Assembly: GCF_003315345.1 (NCBI RefSeq)
Contig: NZ_QNRO01000005.1
Location: 62,001-126,000, forward strand
DNA from: Marinobacter pelagius
Lineage (GTDB): Bacteria > Pseudomonadota > Gammaproteobacteria > Pseudomonadales > Oleiphilaceae
DNA: 64,000 bases
Direction: 5' to 3'
The position numbers were made by a program, and so were the translations under genes. The notes below the pieces were generated by a model that ran no database searches, was not told the DNA's origin, and was given only the letters and a program-made list of their open reading frames with translations. Shown one piece after another: positions 41,683 through 49,153 of this stretch (position 1 is its first letter; the number at the start of each line of letters is the position of its first letter).

Positions 41683-41937
41683 CTATGCCAAACAGATCCG
41701 ATAGCGGAGAACGCCCGCCTCCTCCTCCCGAATCCATTCAATCCGGTGCCCTGTTACCTCGCAAAGTGCCTGCATGTCCTTGCGGCCGCTGGGATCGTCG
41801 GCCAGGAACTCGACCTGCGTGCCACTGGGCAAACCCTGGGTGCGTTTCTTGAAGCGCAGAATCGGAAGAGGGCACACCAGACCGACTGCATCGATCTGGT
41901 ATACCCCGGACTGATCAGTCAAGACGCACGCTCTCAC
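41683..41937 (-). CDS. TusA-family sulfur-carrier-like protein
   Basis: 84 residues with the TusA/SirA/YedF core: the sulfur-binding Cys in LVCPLPILRFKK (about residues 21-32) and the C-terminal GHRIEW strand. The frame opens with GTG 41937 overlapping the end of the 41-residue peptide gene; a TTG at 41922 is a possible shorter start. Such proteins pass persulfide sulfur. As the last gene of the formate dehydrogenase operon it could supply sulfur to FdhD for the bis-MGD cofactor (inference), because FdhD needs a sulfur donor to activate FdhA. Confidence 0.8.
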   Translation of the reverse strand: MRACVLTDQSGVYQIDAVGLVCPLPILRFKKRTQGLPSGTQVEFLADDPSGRKDMQALCEVTGHRIEWIREEEAGVLRYRICLA

Positions 41938-42040
41938 TGCTGGTCATTTCGGCTGAGGACCAGCCGAACTGGTTCAGAACGATCGGGGAGAGAGAAGCAA
42001 TGACCAATGCTGCGACAAATGCGGAAATCATGACCTTCAT
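41915..42040 (-). CDS. 41-residue single-helix membrane peptide coupled to fdhC
   Basis: ATG 42040 overlaps the fdhC stop (ATGA) and has AAAGGAGG 7 bases upstream, inside the end of fdhC; the peptide ends at TGA 41915. Sequence: a short MKVM start, a hydrophobic helix of about 18 residues (ISAFVAALVIASLSPIVL) and a polar tail ending VRLD. The excellent ribosome site and stop/start overlap argue that it is translated. I recognise no family. It might be a small accessory subunit of the membrane-bound formate dehydrogenase or stabilise the cytochrome b subunit. Confidence 0.6.
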   Translation of the reverse strand: MKVMISAFVAALVIASLSPIVLNQFGWSSAEMTSSESVRLD

Positions 42041-43209
42041 GAAGATCCTCCTTTGTCCTGTTTGGCCTCGACGTCGGCCACCCAGAGGTCGTGGTGCTGG
42101 CGGGCCCACTCGAGGTCAACCTGACCGTTACCCATGGCATCGAAAGCACCTTCCATACCGACCGAGCCGATGTAGATGTGAGCGATGATGGCCACCATCA
42201 TCACGAACGCCACGATCGAGTGCCAGATGTTGGCATACTGCATCTCCTGATGCGGTGCCAGGTCAGTCGGGAGACTGGTACCCAGAACGCTGTTGATGAC
42301 ACCAAAGGTGTCGGCAAACATGGGCATCTGGAACGGAAACAGCAGCGACAGCCCGGACAGGGAGACAGAAACACCCAACACCATCACCGTCCAGAAAACG
42401 ATCTTCTGGCCCGCGTTGAATTTCTTTGCCGAGGGATGGCTCTTGGTAAAGATGCCGCCACCAGCCTTGAGCCACTGCCAATCCAACTTGTTGGGAATGT
42501 TGTGCGCCACCCACATGACAAACGTCATGACCAGGCCCAGCATAAAGGCCCAGGCAATGTTGTTGTGAAGCCACTTGGAGCCGGCTGCCAGAGTCGCAAA
42601 GGCGTCGGGCCCCAGAACGGGAATCAGGAAGCTGCGCCCCATCAGGGTAATCAGTCCGGTGATACCCAGTGCGATAAACGAGCCCGCCAGTAACCAGTGA
42701 CCAAAGCGTTCCACGGGCTTGAATCGTTCAATGGTCGTGCCCGCAGGGCCGCCATCGATCATGATTCTTCCGCGAACGAAGTAGAAAATTACAAGCAGTA
42801 CGATGATGCCCAACAGGGCGCTGCCACCGTAGGTAATGACCGGACCTTCCCGCAGCTTGTACCAGGCAATGCCTTCATCCTGGATCATGACGCCATTGGC
42901 GGGGCCGGGGGACTGAACGGTAGGGTCAATCTTGTTGTAGCGGATGGAACGCCAGGCATCGGCATCAGAGATACCGCCCCGGGTTCCAAGCTGATCGGTG
43001 ATTGGCGCCGCATTGGCCGGATTACCCAGGTTCTCGGAGCGGAAACTCTCGTCCAGTTTCAACTGCTCCTGACGGCGCATTATGTCTTCGAGGGTCTGGG
43101 CTCCCCCGGTCGCTGTTCGATCAGCCGTCGGGGCCTCTTGTGCCCAGGCAGGATTGAACAGCAGTGTCGCCAGCACGAGGGCGGCGGCACCCAATAGGTT
43201 TTTGTTCAT
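42037..43209 (-). CDS. fdhC: Formate dehydrogenase gamma subunit (cytochrome b556)
   Basis: Inner-membrane di-haem cytochrome b that passes electrons from FdhB to quinone. 390 residues from ATG 43209 (TTGGAGTG upstream); the frame is open further upstream but lacks a signal. Signal peptide ends AWA|QE (residue 23), then a periplasmic stretch of about 100 residues not present in short FdnI, then four or five helices. Haem-ligand-type histidines occur in FGHWLLAG, WLHNNIAW and NIWHSIVAFVMMVAIIAHIYIG. Its stop is fused with the start of the 41-residue peptide gene. Confidence 0.9.
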   Translation of the reverse strand: MNKNLLGAAALVLATLLFNPAWAQEAPTADRTATGGAQTLEDIMRRQEQLKLDESFRSENLGNPANAAPITDQLGTRGGISDADAWRSIRYNKIDPTVQSPGPANGVMIQDEGIAWYKLREGPVITYGGSALLGIIVLLVIFYFVRGRIMIDGGPAGTTIERFKPVERFGHWLLAGSFIALGITGLITLMGRSFLIPVLGPDAFATLAAGSKWLHNNIAWAFMLGLVMTFVMWVAHNIPNKLDWQWLKAGGGIFTKSHPSAKKFNAGQKIVFWTVMVLGVSVSLSGLSLLFPFQMPMFADTFGVINSVLGTSLPTDLAPHQEMQYANIWHSIVAFVMMVAIIAHIYIGSVGMEGAFDAMGNGQVDLEWARQHHDLWVADVEAKQDKGGSS

Positions 43210-43295: not shown

Positions 43296-43904
43296 TTATG
43301 CGCCCTTCTTCTCGTAGGCTGTGCCCCATCCCCAGGCGCCGGAACCGAAACCACGGTTCACAACACGCTGGCGATAGATGTCCGCCACCTCGTTGCCGTC
43401 ACCGGCCAACAGGGCTTTGGTGGAGCACATTTCCGCACAGATTGGCAGTTTGCCTTCGGCAATACGGTTGCGACCGTACTTCTGGAACTCGACGGTGGAA
43501 TTGTCTTCTTCCGGGCCGCCTGCACAGAAGGTGCACTTGTCCATCTTGCCCCGGCTGCCAAAGTTACCCGCTTGCGGGAACTGGGGCGCGCCGAAGGGGC
43601 AAGCGTAGAAGCAATAGCCACAACCGATACACAGATCCTTGGAGTGCAGCACCACACCGTCTTCGGTCTGGTAGAAGCAGTCCACCGGACAGACGGCCAT
43701 GCAGGGCGCGTCCGAACAGTGCATGCAAGCTACCGATATCGAGCGCTCGCCCGGCTTACCATCTTCGATGGTTACCACGCGGCGACGGTTGATGCCCCAG
43801 GGGACTTCATGTTCATTCTTACAGGCCGTTACGCAGGCATTACATTCGATGCAGCGCTCGGCGTCGCAAAGGAATTTTGCTCTTGCTTGTCCTTCAATAG
43901 CCAT
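43296..43904 (-). CDS. fdhB: Formate dehydrogenase beta subunit (four [4Fe-4S])
   Basis: 202-residue electron-transfer subunit with four ferredoxin-type clusters: CIECNACVTACKNEH, CMHCSDAPCMAVCPVDC, CIGCGYCFYACPFGAP and CTFCAGG...CAEMCSTKALLAGD. Unlike E. coli FdnH (294 residues) it lacks a C-terminal membrane anchor, so it must be held by FdhA and FdhC. RBS AGAGGTG. It carries no signal peptide and would be exported with Tat-targeted FdhA. Confidence 0.93.
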   Translation of the reverse strand: MAIEGQARAKFLCDAERCIECNACVTACKNEHEVPWGINRRRVVTIEDGKPGERSISVACMHCSDAPCMAVCPVDCFYQTEDGVVLHSKDLCIGCGYCFYACPFGAPQFPQAGNFGSRGKMDKCTFCAGGPEEDNSTVEFQKYGRNRIAEGKLPICAEMCSTKALLAGDGNEVADIYRQRVVNRGFGSGAWGWGTAYEKKGA

Positions 43905-43919
43905 GGTCTACACCTCTTG

Positions 43920-46805
43920 TTATGCCGGCATGATCGAACACAGGGTTGCTTTGGTCTCTTGCATCTGCGTGACCGAGTCATACCCGTATGTTTGAACCGT
44001 GTTGGTGGATTCGCCCAGAACGATTGGGTCGGCGCCCTTGGGATACTTGTCCCGCAGGTCCTTGCCCTGGTAGTGACCACCGAAGTGGAAGGGCATGAAT
44101 GCCACGCCTTCTCCGACACGTTCTGTCACCATGGCCTTGACCTTGATCTTGGCGCCCTCCGGACCATGAACCCAGACGTCGTGACCATCACGGATGTTCA
44201 GGTTATTCGCATCGCGCGGGTTCACCTCAATGAACATCTCCTGCTGAAGTTCTGCCAGCCAGGGGTTCGAGCGGGTTTCATCACCACCACCCTCGTATTC
44301 GACCAGACGGCCGGAGGTGAGGATGATGGGGAACTCCTTGCTGAAGTCCTTCTTCTGGATTGACTCGTACAGAGTCGGCACCCGCCAGAAGGTCTTGTCT
44401 TCGTAGGTCGGGTAATCCTGGACCAGATCCCGGCGGTTGGTGTACAGCGGTTCGCGATGCAGCGGTACCGGATCCGGGAAGTTCCAGACGATGGCGCGGG
44501 CCTTGGCGTTACCGAAGGGTGCGCACTCGTGCTTGATTGCCACGCGCTGGATACCACCGGACAGGTCGGTCTTCCAGTTGGTTTCCGGGCCTGCAACCGC
44601 GTCGATGGCGGCACGTTCCTCGGCGGTCAGATCGCCATCCCAACCCAGGTCCATCAGCATCTGCATGGTGAATTCCGGATAGCCGTCCTTGATCTCGGAG
44701 TTCTTGGAGTAAACACCGTCTGCCAGAATGTTCTGGCCATTGTGCTCAACACCAAACCGCGCGCGGAACGTCAGGCCGCCCTTGGATACCGGCAACGACA
44801 TGTCGTACAGGTTCGCGGTGCCCGGGTGGTTCATCTCTGCGGTACCCCAGCACGGCCACGGCAGACCGTAGAAGTCACCATCGCAAGGTCCACCAACCGC
44901 GCGCAGGGTGGTCTTGTCGAAATGGTGCTGGTATTTCATGTGCTTCTTGAGACGCTCCGGGGACTGGCCGGTATAGCCGATGGTCCACATGCCGCGGTTG
45001 AACTCGAGGGTAATGTCCTCAATCGACGGCTCATCGCCATTGATGGCGATGTTGCGGAACATGCGATCGGTGAAACCGAACTTGTCGGCAAACAGCTTCA
45101 TGATTTCGTGATCGACCTTGGAGTCGAACAGCGGCTCAACCACCTTTTCCCGCCACTGGAGTGAGCGGTTGGAAGCGGTTACCGAGCCGTAAGTCTCGAA
45201 CTGGGTCGTGGTGGGCAGCAGATAAGCGCCTTCTTTACGATCATGCAGCACTGCAGAGACGGTGGGGAACGGATCGACGACGACCAGCAGGTCGAGCTTT
45301 TCCATCGCTTCCTTCATTTCCGTCATCCGGGTCTGGGAGTTGGGCGCGTGGCCCCACAGCACCATGGCCCGGGTGTTGTCCGGCTGCTCCAGGTTTTCCT
45401 TGGCCTCCAGAACACCGTCGATCCAGCGGGATACAGGGATGCCCTTCTCGTTCATCATGGCCTTGGATTTACCGTTCTTGTCCCACACGGCAAAGCGGCC
45501 TTTCAGATAGTCCAGATCCTCTTCCCAGACTCGTGCCCAATGGGCCCAGGAGCCAGCGGACAAGCCATAATAGCCGGGCAGGGTGTCGGCGAGCACACCG
45601 AGGTCGGTAGCGCCCTGAACGTTGTCGTGGCCGCGGAAGATGTTGGTGCCGCCGCCGGCGACGCCCATGTTGCCGAGGGCCAGTTGGAGTACGCAGTAGG
45701 CACGGGTGTTGTTGTTACCGTTGGTGTGCTGGGTACCACCCATACACCAGATCACCGTGCCGGGACGGTTGTTGGCCAGAGTGCGGGCGACCCGCTCGAG
45801 CTGTGCACCCGGTGTACCGGTGACTCGCTCTACCTCTTCCGGCGTCCACTTGGCGACTTCGGCGCGGATATCTTCCATGCCGTAAACGCGGGTACGGATG
45901 AACTCTTTGTCTTCCCAGCCGTTTTCGAAGATGTGCCAGAGAATACCCCACACCAGTGCCACGTCAGAACCCGGGCGGAAACGCACGTATTCGTCGGCGT
46001 GGGCTGCGGTGCGGGTGAAACGTGGGTCGCATACGATCAGCGGCGCGTTGTTTTCTTCCTTGGCCTTCAGTACGTGTAACAACGACACCGGGTGCGCTTC
46101 GGCGGGGTTACCCCCGATAATGAAGATCGCCTTGGAATTGTGGATGTCGTTGTAGGAGTTGGTCATTGCGCCGTAGCCCCAGGTGTTGGCTACGCCGGCA
46201 ACGGTCGTCGAGTGACAGATCCGGGCCTGGTGGTCGACGTTGTTGGTACCCCAGTAGGCAGCGAACTTGCGGAACAGATACGCCTGTTCGTTGTTGAACT
46301 TGGCGCTGCCCAGCCAGTAGACGGAATCGGGGCCGCTTTCCTCACGGATTTGCAGCATCTTGTCGCCGATTTCGTTAATGGCCGTATCCCAGGAAATCTT
46401 CTGCCACTGGCCGTTGACCATTTTCATGGGGGACTTGAGGCGACGTTCGCCATGGGCGTGTTCACGGACCGAAGCGCCTTTGGCACAGTGAGCGCCCAAA
46501 TTGAAGGGGCTGTCCCAGCCAGGTTCCTGACCGGTCCATACGCCATTCTGGACTTCGGCTTCAACGGTGCAGCCGACCGAACAGTGCGTACATACCGATT
46601 TCTTGACGACGACTTCGCCACCCTCAGTCGATGGGGTCGCAGCTTCAACCCTCCCCGACGTCAGCGATAGTGCCGCCAAACCACCCACTGCGACACCGGA
46701 GGTTGTCAGGAACTGACGACGATCCAGAGTCTTGGCAGCGAGAGACGAAAGCAAAGAGCCTGCACGGGGGCCTTTCGCTACCCCGTTGGTCTTCTTCCTT
46801 AACAT
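43920..46805 (-). CDS. fdhA: Formate dehydrogenase alpha subunit (Cys type, Tat-exported)
   Basis: 961-residue Mo/W-bis-MGD catalytic subunit oxidising formate to CO2 at the periplasmic face. Twin-arginine signal DRRQFLTTSG at about residues 28-37; N-terminal [4Fe-4S] site CTHCSVGC...GAHCAKG; and the active-site residue is Cys197 in QARICHS, aligned with selenocysteine 196 of E. coli FdnG/FdoG. No in-frame TGA is needed, so no Sec machinery. A C-terminal MopB cap domain (NPRDANNLNIRDGHDVWVHGPEGAKIKV) completes it. Metal (Mo or W) cannot be told from sequence, but a tungstate-type importer lies 10 kb away. Confidence 0.95.
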   Translation of the reverse strand: MLRKKTNGVAKGPRAGSLLSSLAAKTLDRRQFLTTSGVAVGGLAALSLTSGRVEAATPSTEGGEVVVKKSVCTHCSVGCTVEAEVQNGVWTGQEPGWDSPFNLGAHCAKGASVREHAHGERRLKSPMKMVNGQWQKISWDTAINEIGDKMLQIREESGPDSVYWLGSAKFNNEQAYLFRKFAAYWGTNNVDHQARICHSTTVAGVANTWGYGAMTNSYNDIHNSKAIFIIGGNPAEAHPVSLLHVLKAKEENNAPLIVCDPRFTRTAAHADEYVRFRPGSDVALVWGILWHIFENGWEDKEFIRTRVYGMEDIRAEVAKWTPEEVERVTGTPGAQLERVARTLANNRPGTVIWCMGGTQHTNGNNNTRAYCVLQLALGNMGVAGGGTNIFRGHDNVQGATDLGVLADTLPGYYGLSAGSWAHWARVWEEDLDYLKGRFAVWDKNGKSKAMMNEKGIPVSRWIDGVLEAKENLEQPDNTRAMVLWGHAPNSQTRMTEMKEAMEKLDLLVVVDPFPTVSAVLHDRKEGAYLLPTTTQFETYGSVTASNRSLQWREKVVEPLFDSKVDHEIMKLFADKFGFTDRMFRNIAINGDEPSIEDITLEFNRGMWTIGYTGQSPERLKKHMKYQHHFDKTTLRAVGGPCDGDFYGLPWPCWGTAEMNHPGTANLYDMSLPVSKGGLTFRARFGVEHNGQNILADGVYSKNSEIKDGYPEFTMQMLMDLGWDGDLTAEERAAIDAVAGPETNWKTDLSGGIQRVAIKHECAPFGNAKARAIVWNFPDPVPLHREPLYTNRRDLVQDYPTYEDKTFWRVPTLYESIQKKDFSKEFPIILTSGRLVEYEGGGDETRSNPWLAELQQEMFIEVNPRDANNLNIRDGHDVWVHGPEGAKIKVKAMVTERVGEGVAFMPFHFGGHYQGKDLRDKYPKGADPIVLGESTNTVQTYGYDSVTQMQETKATLCSIMPA

Positions 46806-46893: not shown

Positions 46894-47085
46894 TCAAAAG
46901 CGAGCCGATTCGAAATACTTACGTGTATGTTCGGTATCCCGTAAACCGCGGCTTTTTGGCGCGTCTGTTCTGACGACCTCCGCAGCGGCGTTCGGTGCAA
47001 CCGTCATTGCCACAGCAGCCGGAGCTGCGGCAGCGGCCATTTTCAGGAAACGGCGACGGCTGTTTTCACGCTTCGGGTTGTCCAT
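46894..47085 (-). CDS. fdhX: Small Tat-signal protein of formate dehydrogenase operon
   Basis: 63 residues beginning with a twin-arginine signal (SRRRFLKMAAAAAPAAVAM) followed by a short mature part (about 25 residues) with TEHTRKYFESARF at the end. This is the 'formate dehydrogenase region Tat target' family commonly found just before fdhA. RBS GGGGGAGGTG. Its function is uncertain; it may aid assembly or export of the FdhAB complex. Eighty-eight bases separate it from fdhA. Confidence 0.88.
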   Translation of the reverse strand: MDNPKRENSRRRFLKMAAAAAPAAVAMTVAPNAAAEVVRTDAPKSRGLRDTEHTRKYFESARF

Positions 47086-47125: not shown

Positions 47126-47737
47126 TTACTGAATCGCAAAGGCGTCGGCTTCCACGGCCATGAAGGCTCTTCCAAGCGAGCCAACCGGCGCGTAAAAGAC
47201 GGCGCTTTGCGCTTCCTCCAAATCGGTAAAAAACAGTGCTGCCCACTTCGCCAGATGAGCGTCAAAAAAAACTTTCTGCGATTGAAGTCCGCTATCGCAG
47301 GGAAATTCGCCGGTAATGATGCCCGCCATGATTTCACACAGGGTGCCGATATGGTCTTCGGGCTCTTTCACCTCACTGCGGGCTTTGATGCCCCGGGACC
47401 TGAGGTCCGTTCGCAGCTCCGCCAGGGGCTTCTCGTTCAGAAAGCCGGTGAGGTAATAACTTGCGTAGGGGAGCAGCTCGCCACGGCCGAGGCCAACAAA
47501 CAGGTTATTGAACTCTCGCTCGGCATCGCAGGGATTGGTTCGTTCGGCAAGGGCGGCCAAATTTTTGCAGGCCAAACCCAGGGGCGTTTCATCGCCCTGC
47601 AGTGACGCCAACCCCTGTAACAATTCACCGGAGGGTGGGTCTGCAAGCAGAACGCCCAGCAGTTGATAGATCTGGGCCCTCGCACGATCCTCTTCGGAGA
47701 CCGAACGCGGGCACTGGATTTCCGCAGTGTTACTCAA
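47126..47737 (-). CDS. TorD/DmsD-family redox-enzyme chaperone
   Basis: 203-residue helical cytoplasmic protein starting at a rare TTG (47737) with GAAGGAAC 7 bases upstream. TorD-family features: RAQIYQLLGVLLADPPSGELL near the N-terminus, REFNNLFVGLGRGELLPYASYYLTG and the EPEDHIGTLCEIMAGI motif. Such chaperones bind the Tat signal of the molybdoenzyme and hold export until cofactor is inserted; the partner here should be FdhA and perhaps FdhX. The TTG start may keep its level low. Confidence 0.88.
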   Translation of the reverse strand: MSNTAEIQCPRSVSEEDRARAQIYQLLGVLLADPPSGELLQGLASLQGDETPLGLACKNLAALAERTNPCDAEREFNNLFVGLGRGELLPYASYYLTGFLNEKPLAELRTDLRSRGIKARSEVKEPEDHIGTLCEIMAGIITGEFPCDSGLQSQKVFFDAHLAKWAALFFTDLEEAQSAVFYAPVGSLGRAFMAVEADAFAIQ

Positions 47738-47846: not shown

Positions 47847-48473
47847 CTAATAGTCAAAACGCATCCTTGGCCGGAATCGTGGTTCCGGCGTTTCTTCCGG
47901 CTGGCTGGTTTCTTTTTGGGCAAATTGTTGCTCGGGAAGTTCTGTCGGCGTTGCCTTGTCATCAAGCTCAAGGGTGTCATCGGGCTCCGGATCCTCGGCG
48001 TTTGTCGAAACAGGCTCAGCCGAGGATATCCGCACCTGCTCGTTCGACTGGTCTTCCACGACGTCAGCGGCTTTTTTGGCTTTGTCGACAAGGCCCTCGC
48101 CAACTTTGTACACCGATGTCACGGTCTGGCCGGCCGTCGAGGCCAGGGTGTAATCCTCATCGTAATCATTGAGTCCATCCAGAACTGCGAGTACCGGGTT
48201 GGATTTCCAGAGCCCCCGCAGAGCCTTCCGGCGAAGGAACTCCGGAATTTCCTTGCGCATGAATCCGGTGATGTCGGTGCCCAGCTCGATGGTTTCCGGG
48301 TCGGGCAGGCCATATTTCTCGAGCAACTCGTGTTCGGGCAATGCTTCGTTGATCGCAAGCTCCTGCTCCTCCGGGGTAGGCTCGGACTCGACAACCGGAG
48401 GGGGGGATTGTTCTGCCTGCTTGCCGGCTTCGGCTTTTCTGCGCGCCCAGCGCTGAAGACGTGACTCGGCCAT
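47847..48473 (-). CDS. DUF3306 protein
   Basis: 208 residues, acidic and Pro/Glu rich at both ends. Core: MAESRLQRWARRKAEAG start and ELLEKYGLPDPETIELGTDITGFMRKEIPEFLRRKALRGLWKSNPVLAVLDGLNDYDEDYT, the pattern I know as DUF3306, which is found almost only beside formate dehydrogenase genes. No signal or helix for membranes. Start overlaps the DUF3305 stop (TAATG). Function undescribed; probably cofactor delivery or assembly of FdhA. Confidence 0.82.
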   Translation of the reverse strand: MAESRLQRWARRKAEAGKQAEQSPPPVVESEPTPEEQELAINEALPEHELLEKYGLPDPETIELGTDITGFMRKEIPEFLRRKALRGLWKSNPVLAVLDGLNDYDEDYTLASTAGQTVTSVYKVGEGLVDKAKKAADVVEDQSNEQVRISSAEPVSTNAEDPEPDDTLELDDKATPTELPEQQFAQKETSQPEETPEPRFRPRMRFDY

Positions 48474-49051
48474 TACTGAATTCTCGGTTTTTTGATGTTC
48501 GCAGGAGCACGGAAAACGTCGCTTTCCTGACGTATGCGCGGGTCGCCCTTGGCGTCCTCAACGCGATCGACACGGACTTCGTCGCGACGGCGCTTCTTGA
48601 ATGGCTCCTCGATGTAGTGCATGTCGATGAACTCTTTGATCCAGGCCGCCAGGGATTCGGGAATCGGAACCGCCTCGACAATGCTTTCGCCACTATCCAG
48701 GGAATCCAGTGCTTCATGGGCGCTGGCTGTCACGGTGCTGACAACCCACCCGGATGGCGACTGGCTCGTTACATCTTTGTCCATAATGATCCAGACAGAA
48801 GGCACGGCCATGTTAAGGGAGACCAGATAGCCCTCCACATCAGCCCGAAACAGTTCCATTGTCACGGTGCCCGCGTGGTAATCGACGACTTCGCCCCCGC
48901 GAACCATCTCTTTCCAGAACGCGTCAGGTGCCCCCGGTATGACAGCAACGGGCTTCCAGATATCCTTTGCCCAACGTGTCACGCCTGGAGATCGGCGGAC
49001 GACGGCGCCCACCTTCAATTCGCGATTCCACTGTTCTGTACGACTACTCAT
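48473..49051 (-). CDS. DUF3305 protein
   Basis: 192 residues from ATG 49051 (GAGAAG upstream; ATG 49063 is possible but has no ribosome site). Recognisable DUF3305 features: KVGAVVRRSPGVTRWAKDIWKPVAVIPGA and the basic segment FKKRRRDEVRVDRVEDAKGDPRIRQE. First gene of the leftward formate dehydrogenase operon; overlaps DUF3306 by one base. The two DUFs nearly always occur together. The function is unknown; an accessory role in FDH maturation is inferred from position. Confidence 0.82.
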   Translation of the reverse strand: MSSRTEQWNRELKVGAVVRRSPGVTRWAKDIWKPVAVIPGAPDAFWKEMVRGGEVVDYHAGTVTMELFRADVEGYLVSLNMAVPSVWIIMDKDVTSQSPSGWVVSTVTASAHEALDSLDSGESIVEAVPIPESLAAWIKEFIDMHYIEEPFKKRRRDEVRVDRVEDAKGDPRIRQESDVFRAPANIKKPRIQ

Positions 49052-49153
49052 GGTGCTTCTCATTTTTTGTTATAGCGTAAAACTAGCAGGGCACAAACGA
49101 TTATCCAATTGTCCCAAAGATAATGCCTGTGGCATGCTCGAAAAGCGATACGG

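Follow-up and report, generated by a model that had tools for sequence, protein, structure and literature searches.

A small membrane protein encoded directly after fdhC in Marinobacter pelagius: a conserved family associated with one lineage of FDH3-type formate dehydrogenases

The window analyzed here, a stretch of 64,000 nucleotides of the Marinobacter pelagius genome, carries on its minus strand an operon of the FDH3 type with the order DUF3305-position protein, DUF3306 protein, TorD-like chaperone, small Tat protein, fdhA, fdhB, fdhC, a 41-codon open reading frame and a tusA-like gene. The features, in the order of transcription, are as follows.

48473..49063, minus strand: protein in the DUF3305 position (open reading frame and placement as in the Alloyangia operon)
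47847..48473, minus strand: DUF3306 protein of formate dehydrogenase operons (PF11748)
47126..47737, minus strand: TorD-like chaperone (PF02613)
46894..47085, minus strand: small Tat-signal protein of formate dehydrogenase regions (TIGR02811, 43.8 bits, slightly below the cut-off of 48.45)
43920..46805, minus strand: fdhA, catalytic subunit with a Tat-like signal (PF00384, PF01568 and PF04879)
43296..43904, minus strand: fdhB, FDH3 beta subunit of 202 amino acids (NF038355, 347.9 bits, cut-off 240)
42037..43209, minus strand: fdhC, cytochrome b (gamma) subunit (TIGR01583, 129.7 bits, above the cut-off; PF01292)
42047..42054, minus strand: ribosome-binding site AAAGGAGG within the 3′ end of fdhC, read directly from the sequence
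42037..42040, minus strand: ATGA overlap of the fdhC stop codon (TGA, 42039-42037) and the peptide start codon
42040..41915, minus strand: peptide gene, ATG start, 41 codons, encoding a 41-residue single-span membrane protein
41683..41937, minus strand: TusA-like sulfurtransferase (PF01206, 57.1 bits)

By its NF038355 score of 347.9 bits and its b561-domain gamma subunit (TIGR01583, 129.7 bits), the encoded enzyme belongs to the respiratory FDH3 type. FdhA has a cysteine at the metal position (in the motif RICH), and its best relative in the PDB is FdhA of Shewanella oneidensis (9vap_A). FdhC is 390 residues long when read from the likely ATG at 43209, within an open frame that extends to 43329, and consists of a signal-like N-terminus, a periplasmic stretch, an extra helix and a four-helix b561 domain; a single-chain AlphaFold model predicts, with moderate confidence, a helix at residues 112-145 and four more membrane helices, five in total. 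A hydropathy search found no hydrophobic segment near the C-terminus of FdhB, where E. coli FdnH ends in a membrane helix. FdhAB of FDH3 must therefore be held to the membrane via FdhC.

Translation of positions 42040..41915 gives MKVMISAFVAALVIASLSPIVLNQFGWSSAEMTSSESVRLD, and the junction with fdhC reads ...gacAAAGGAGGatcttcATGA..., in which both the ATGA overlap and AAAGGAGG, located 6 bases before the ATG, can be seen. The tusA-like gene starts either at GTG 41937 or at TTG 41922, and both starts overlap the 3′ end of the peptide gene. In the peptide, K2 is followed by a hydrophobic helix (approximately residues 3-23), and a polar tail, GWSSAEMTSSESVRLD, in which V38-R39-L40 are near-invariant. 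There is a single hydrophobic segment (19-residue Kyte-Doolittle maximum of 2.41, residues 3-21), and AlphaFold2 predicts a helix at residues 2-25 with a flexible tail of low confidence. The sequence-only reading of this DNA had described an unannotated small membrane protein with an ATGA overlap, AAAGGAGG at ideal spacing, one hydrophobic helix and a position inside a formate dehydrogenase operon; each of these structural points was borne out, the position being between fdhC and the tusA-like gene of an FDH3-type operon. The word “unannotated” holds loosely, since alphaproteobacterial relatives do appear in RefSeq, labelled only as “hypothetical protein”.

Comparison of 30 congeneric loci leaves it beyond reasonable doubt that the gene codes for protein and is under purifying selection. 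The peptide frame is free of stop codons in all 30, while each of the two other forward frames is interrupted in every one of them; its pN/pS is 0.20, vs. 1.7 and 2.8 in the other two. An open reading frame arising by chance was thus rejected. The sequence-only reading had named a lack of frame conservation in relatives as a refutation of its small protein; the frame is conserved, and the claim of a real small protein is further supported by synteny and by co-occurrence with FDH3 (see below).

Across the genus, K2, M4, F8, G26, W27, S28, A30, V38, R39 and L40 are invariant, and the close relative G043 is 95% identical over the peptide. The alignments contain no conserved Cys or His, and a redox centre is thus not expected. 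Conservation in the helix is concentrated on one face (residues 4, 7, 11, 14, 18 and 22), with a permutation p of ~0.01 in alignment A4, which was not selected by N-terminal pattern, and of ~0.10 in alignment A7, which was collected by such a pattern and is biased there. The single Lys and the mostly acidic tail point to an N-in/C-out topology, in which Lys2 would be cytoplasmic and the conserved tail (G-W/F-S-S-A-E...S-VRL) periplasmic. In the Marinobacter sequence, the helix is followed by S-S-A, a weak cleavage site, and one could imagine that the helix is a signal cut near SSA|E that releases an 11-residue peptide. We rejected this as hardly credible: relatives do not keep the site (SSQE, STQD, SAQQ), and the gene is tied to formate dehydrogenase rather than to receptors or exporters.

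Profile searches retrieved a strong full-length match in 78 of 124 congeneric genomes (E from 2e-20 to 2e-9), with the MK-helix-S/T-rich tail-VRL layout, as was also the case with the A3 and A4 profiles; there is one copy per genome, located at the FDH3 locus. These 78 genomes are exactly those in which the FDH3 beta subunit scores over the curated cut-off, with no exception in either direction, although the 124 genomes are related by descent and a Fisher value for the association overstates their independence. In one Marinobacter genome (G065, C1:2313787-2314322), the FDH3 beta gene appears to be in two pieces, owing to a frameshift or an assembly error, although the peptide gene is intact.

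The peptide is also encoded in Litoricolaceae (Litoricola/Litorivicinus), another family of the same order, where profile matches were found in the gene order fdhB-fdhC-peptide-tusA, the same as in Marinobacter. In a scan of named genomes made with alignment A2, 71 of 72 peptide loci lie near fdhC, fdhB or fdhA; the remaining one, on a short contig, has the cytochrome gene of the operon alongside. The four-nucleotide ATGA-type overlap with fdhC is present in 36 of 108 relatives examined; many of the others have a cytochrome c gene inserted in front of the peptide gene, the two being separated, or overlapping, by a few bases. On Roseobacteraceae plasmids, it follows either fdhC directly or a WD40-cytochrome c gene located after fdhC, and the order fdhC(-cytochrome c)-peptide recurs in Roseobacteraceae, Roseibium and others. 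The peptide was not found by a DNA-level search of plasmids, which did retrieve formate dehydrogenase operons; the protein-level search found it. A class-wide search with an early profile gave mostly chance matches, but one match led to a true member of the family beside the DUF3306 gene, on the strand opposite to fdhC.

We sampled 398 genomes of the phylum, 61 of which contain FDH3, and searched the neighbourhood of almost every FDH3 copy outside Marinobacter with a successively growing profile. Most alphaproteobacterial FDH3 clusters contain the peptide. In whole-genome searches, exactly one strong match (E <= 8e-10) was present in 26 of the 28 FDH3-positive alphaproteobacterial genomes, and none at this threshold in 52 genomes outside the FDH3 list. 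Three strong matches lie 12-14 kb from fdhB, and the two that were inspected remain within the formate dehydrogenase locus. Some alphaproteobacterial genomes encode the peptide on the opposite strand or at a distance of several kb from fdhC, so that its tight translational coupling with fdhC is not universal. With the growing profile, no peptide was found in the FDH3 clusters of families f37, f153, f228, f230 and f234, where other genes stand after fdhC. Among such clusters (L141-L149 and L107-L144), those of f228, a family that from its gene content we take to be Shewanella, have a gene for a 138-residue membrane protein after fdhC; in those of f153 and f230, the gene there encodes a short protein that has a signal peptide and starts with a KLPAPS-like sequence.

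The tusA gene, which adjoins the peptide gene in Marinobacter and Litoricola, is missing from the alphaproteobacterial operons examined, which keep the peptide. This bears on two alternatives. One is a translated leader that brings ribosomes to tusA, the peptide itself being inert; its overlap with both neighbours would fit, but residue-level conservation across classes, including in genomes without tusA downstream, makes this reading very improbable, and we rejected it. The other, the main rival to a subunit, is a factor that acts transiently in FDH3 biogenesis (FdhC insertion, heme loading or FdhAB docking) and is not part of the final complex. The maturation-type genes of the operon, for the TorD-like chaperone, the small Tat protein, the DUF3306 protein and TusA, speak for it, as does the placement of the peptide gene several kb from fdhC, within the same locus, in some genomes. 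Against it, the peptide gene mostly comes right after the structural fdhC or the cytochrome gene, as do genes of structural small subunits, and it persists where TusA is gone. On balance, we hold an assembly factor to be a serious but minority possibility.

On a quick tree of FdhB and FdhC, the peptide-bearing clusters fall into one clade with 100% SH-aLRT support (35 rows). Six rows of the tree were included because they bear the peptide, and unbiased evidence therefore comes from the rows of the census. The f228 clusters, which have no peptide gene, are located outside of it. Two members of the clade in which the peptide was not recognized are second FDH3 copies, and the other copy in each genome has it. 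One of these second copies (L150, in G1040) has a 50-residue single-helix open reading frame, MSPAQEDPVKAFVGG...TTHLD, that overlaps the fdhC stop and may be a diverged family member below the reach of the profile. Marinobacter and Litoricolaceae are nested among the alphaproteobacteria, suggesting that they acquired the entire operon, with the peptide gene, by transfer. Judging from these comparisons, we conclude that the peptides constitute an undescribed small-protein family, tied to and inherited with one FDH3 lineage.

Neither Pfam nor NCBIfam, scanned with the peptide and 35 relatives, gave anything credible or a model that covers it: none of the 35 family members matched NapE at E<=1, and none matched CydX. 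A PDB search with the peptide profile returned chance matches only and no convincing chain. A literature search found no paper on this peptide, and formate dehydrogenase goes unmentioned in a methods article about small membrane proteins. Known small proteins of respiratory complexes offer analogies. TorE and NapE, which belong to TMAO respiration and periplasmic nitrate respiration, are small membrane proteins credited with helping to anchor and multimerize the membrane electron carrier; they improve anchoring and multimerization of their cognate respiratory components (PMC6134056). Like the peptide, they are very small and single-span, are encoded in operons of periplasmic molybdoenzymes, are patchily distributed among proteobacteria and are conserved on one face (PMC6134056). 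They differ in that they go with NapC/NirT multiheme cytochromes and are homologous to each other in the helix only, whereas the peptide family has a conserved tail, a b561-type FdhC as neighbour and partner and no detectable sequence relation to them. CydX, the 37-residue, one-helix small subunit of cytochrome bd oxidase (PMC4325964), is likewise a tiny single-helix part of an integral-membrane respiratory enzyme; that enzyme is a different one, Pfam and NCBIfam reveal no relation, the peptide gene is in a formate dehydrogenase rather than a cydAB operon, and CydX is a proven subunit while the peptide is a candidate. We regard the likeness to TorE/NapE and CydX as analogy rather than homology, and the functional precedent of TorE/NapE supports a small accessory role for it.

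Among formate dehydrogenases with solved structures, E. coli FDH-N (FdnGHI, 1kqf) resembles FDH3 in that formate oxidation in the periplasm feeds a cytochrome b, and FdhC matches FdnI; FdhC has in addition an extra N-terminal region and helix, and the C-terminal membrane helix of FdnH is missing in FDH3 FdhB. In 1kqf, this FdnH helix serves as an anchor and runs out-to-in. As this orientation is opposite to the likely one of the peptide, the peptide is not a simple replacement for the FdnH helix. The nearest solved FDH3 is that of S. oneidensis (9vap), and no solved structure is closer than its FdhA and FdhB; it is a two-subunit preparation, of which only chains A and B were found in the PDB search, and it comes from a lineage in which the peptide gene appears to be absent. 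Together with the five families in whose FDH3 clusters no peptide was found, this solved two-subunit enzyme indicates that FDH3 chemistry does not depend on the peptide.

We consider it fairly probable that the peptide is an accessory membrane protein of one FDH3 (FdhABC) lineage that packs on FdhC and stabilizes the anchoring of FdhAB. The helix would pack onto the FdhC helices through the face formed by residues 4, 7, 11, 14, 18 and 22, and the tail with its invariant Arg would make contact on the periplasmic side, the docking site of FdhAB and, in many species, of a WD40-cytochrome c. The peptide would thus steady FdhAB on FdhC and raise the efficiency of the enzyme while carrying no redox centre. 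The simplest role would be that of a brace for FdhC or for the surface on which docking takes place, and bracing would matter here, as FDH3 FdhB does not have the anchoring helix of the FdnH type. The gene usually comes next after fdhC or the cytochrome c gene of the operon, which is consistent with this role, and a structural subunit of the FDH3 complex is likely. The proposal of a small subunit of a respiratory formate dehydrogenase made by the sequence-only reading therefore stands as to the tie with FDH3, strongly supported by frame conservation, synteny and one-to-one co-occurrence, while its structural part is plausible.

A special form of the accessory-subunit idea gives the peptide a role in electron exit. 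In many alphaproteobacterial FDH3 operons, the gene between fdhC and that of the peptide (L057:7931-9229 and relatives) codes for WD40 repeats and, at the C-terminus, a cytochrome c domain; its product may be a periplasmic electron acceptor for FDH3. The peptide could tether this cytochrome: in 41 of the 72 named loci the cytochrome gene is immediately followed by the peptide gene, nine Litoricola-type loci have the cytochrome after tusA, and the neighbouring protein combines WD40 repeats with cytochrome c. Marinobacter and several alphaproteobacteria, by contrast, have the peptide in operons without that cytochrome, and a single protein query detected none in the M. pelagius genome, which is weak evidence. 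Tethering is an unlikely role. A more novel reading, to which we give a low probability, is a previously undescribed fourth FDH3 subunit, fixed in one large clade that spans alphaproteobacteria and marine gammaproteobacteria, which would tune the destination of electrons from periplasmic formate oxidation between the quinone pool and a periplasmic cytochrome c and would have spread by transfer with the operon into Marinobacter and Litoricolaceae.

Should the accessory-subunit reading be correct, this FDH3 lineage would have a dedicated small subunit that goes with FdhC. Work on FDH3-type enzymes as oxygen-tolerant CO2/formate catalysts has so far used a two-subunit FdhAB preparation; if this lineage does have such a subunit, its purified or transplanted enzymes may miss a native part. 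The clade that carries the peptide is large, comprising marine and soil bacteria, with a near-exact gene-by-gene association with FDH3, and the peptide would extend the set of helpers of respiratory complexes shorter than 50 residues that size cut-offs have hidden.
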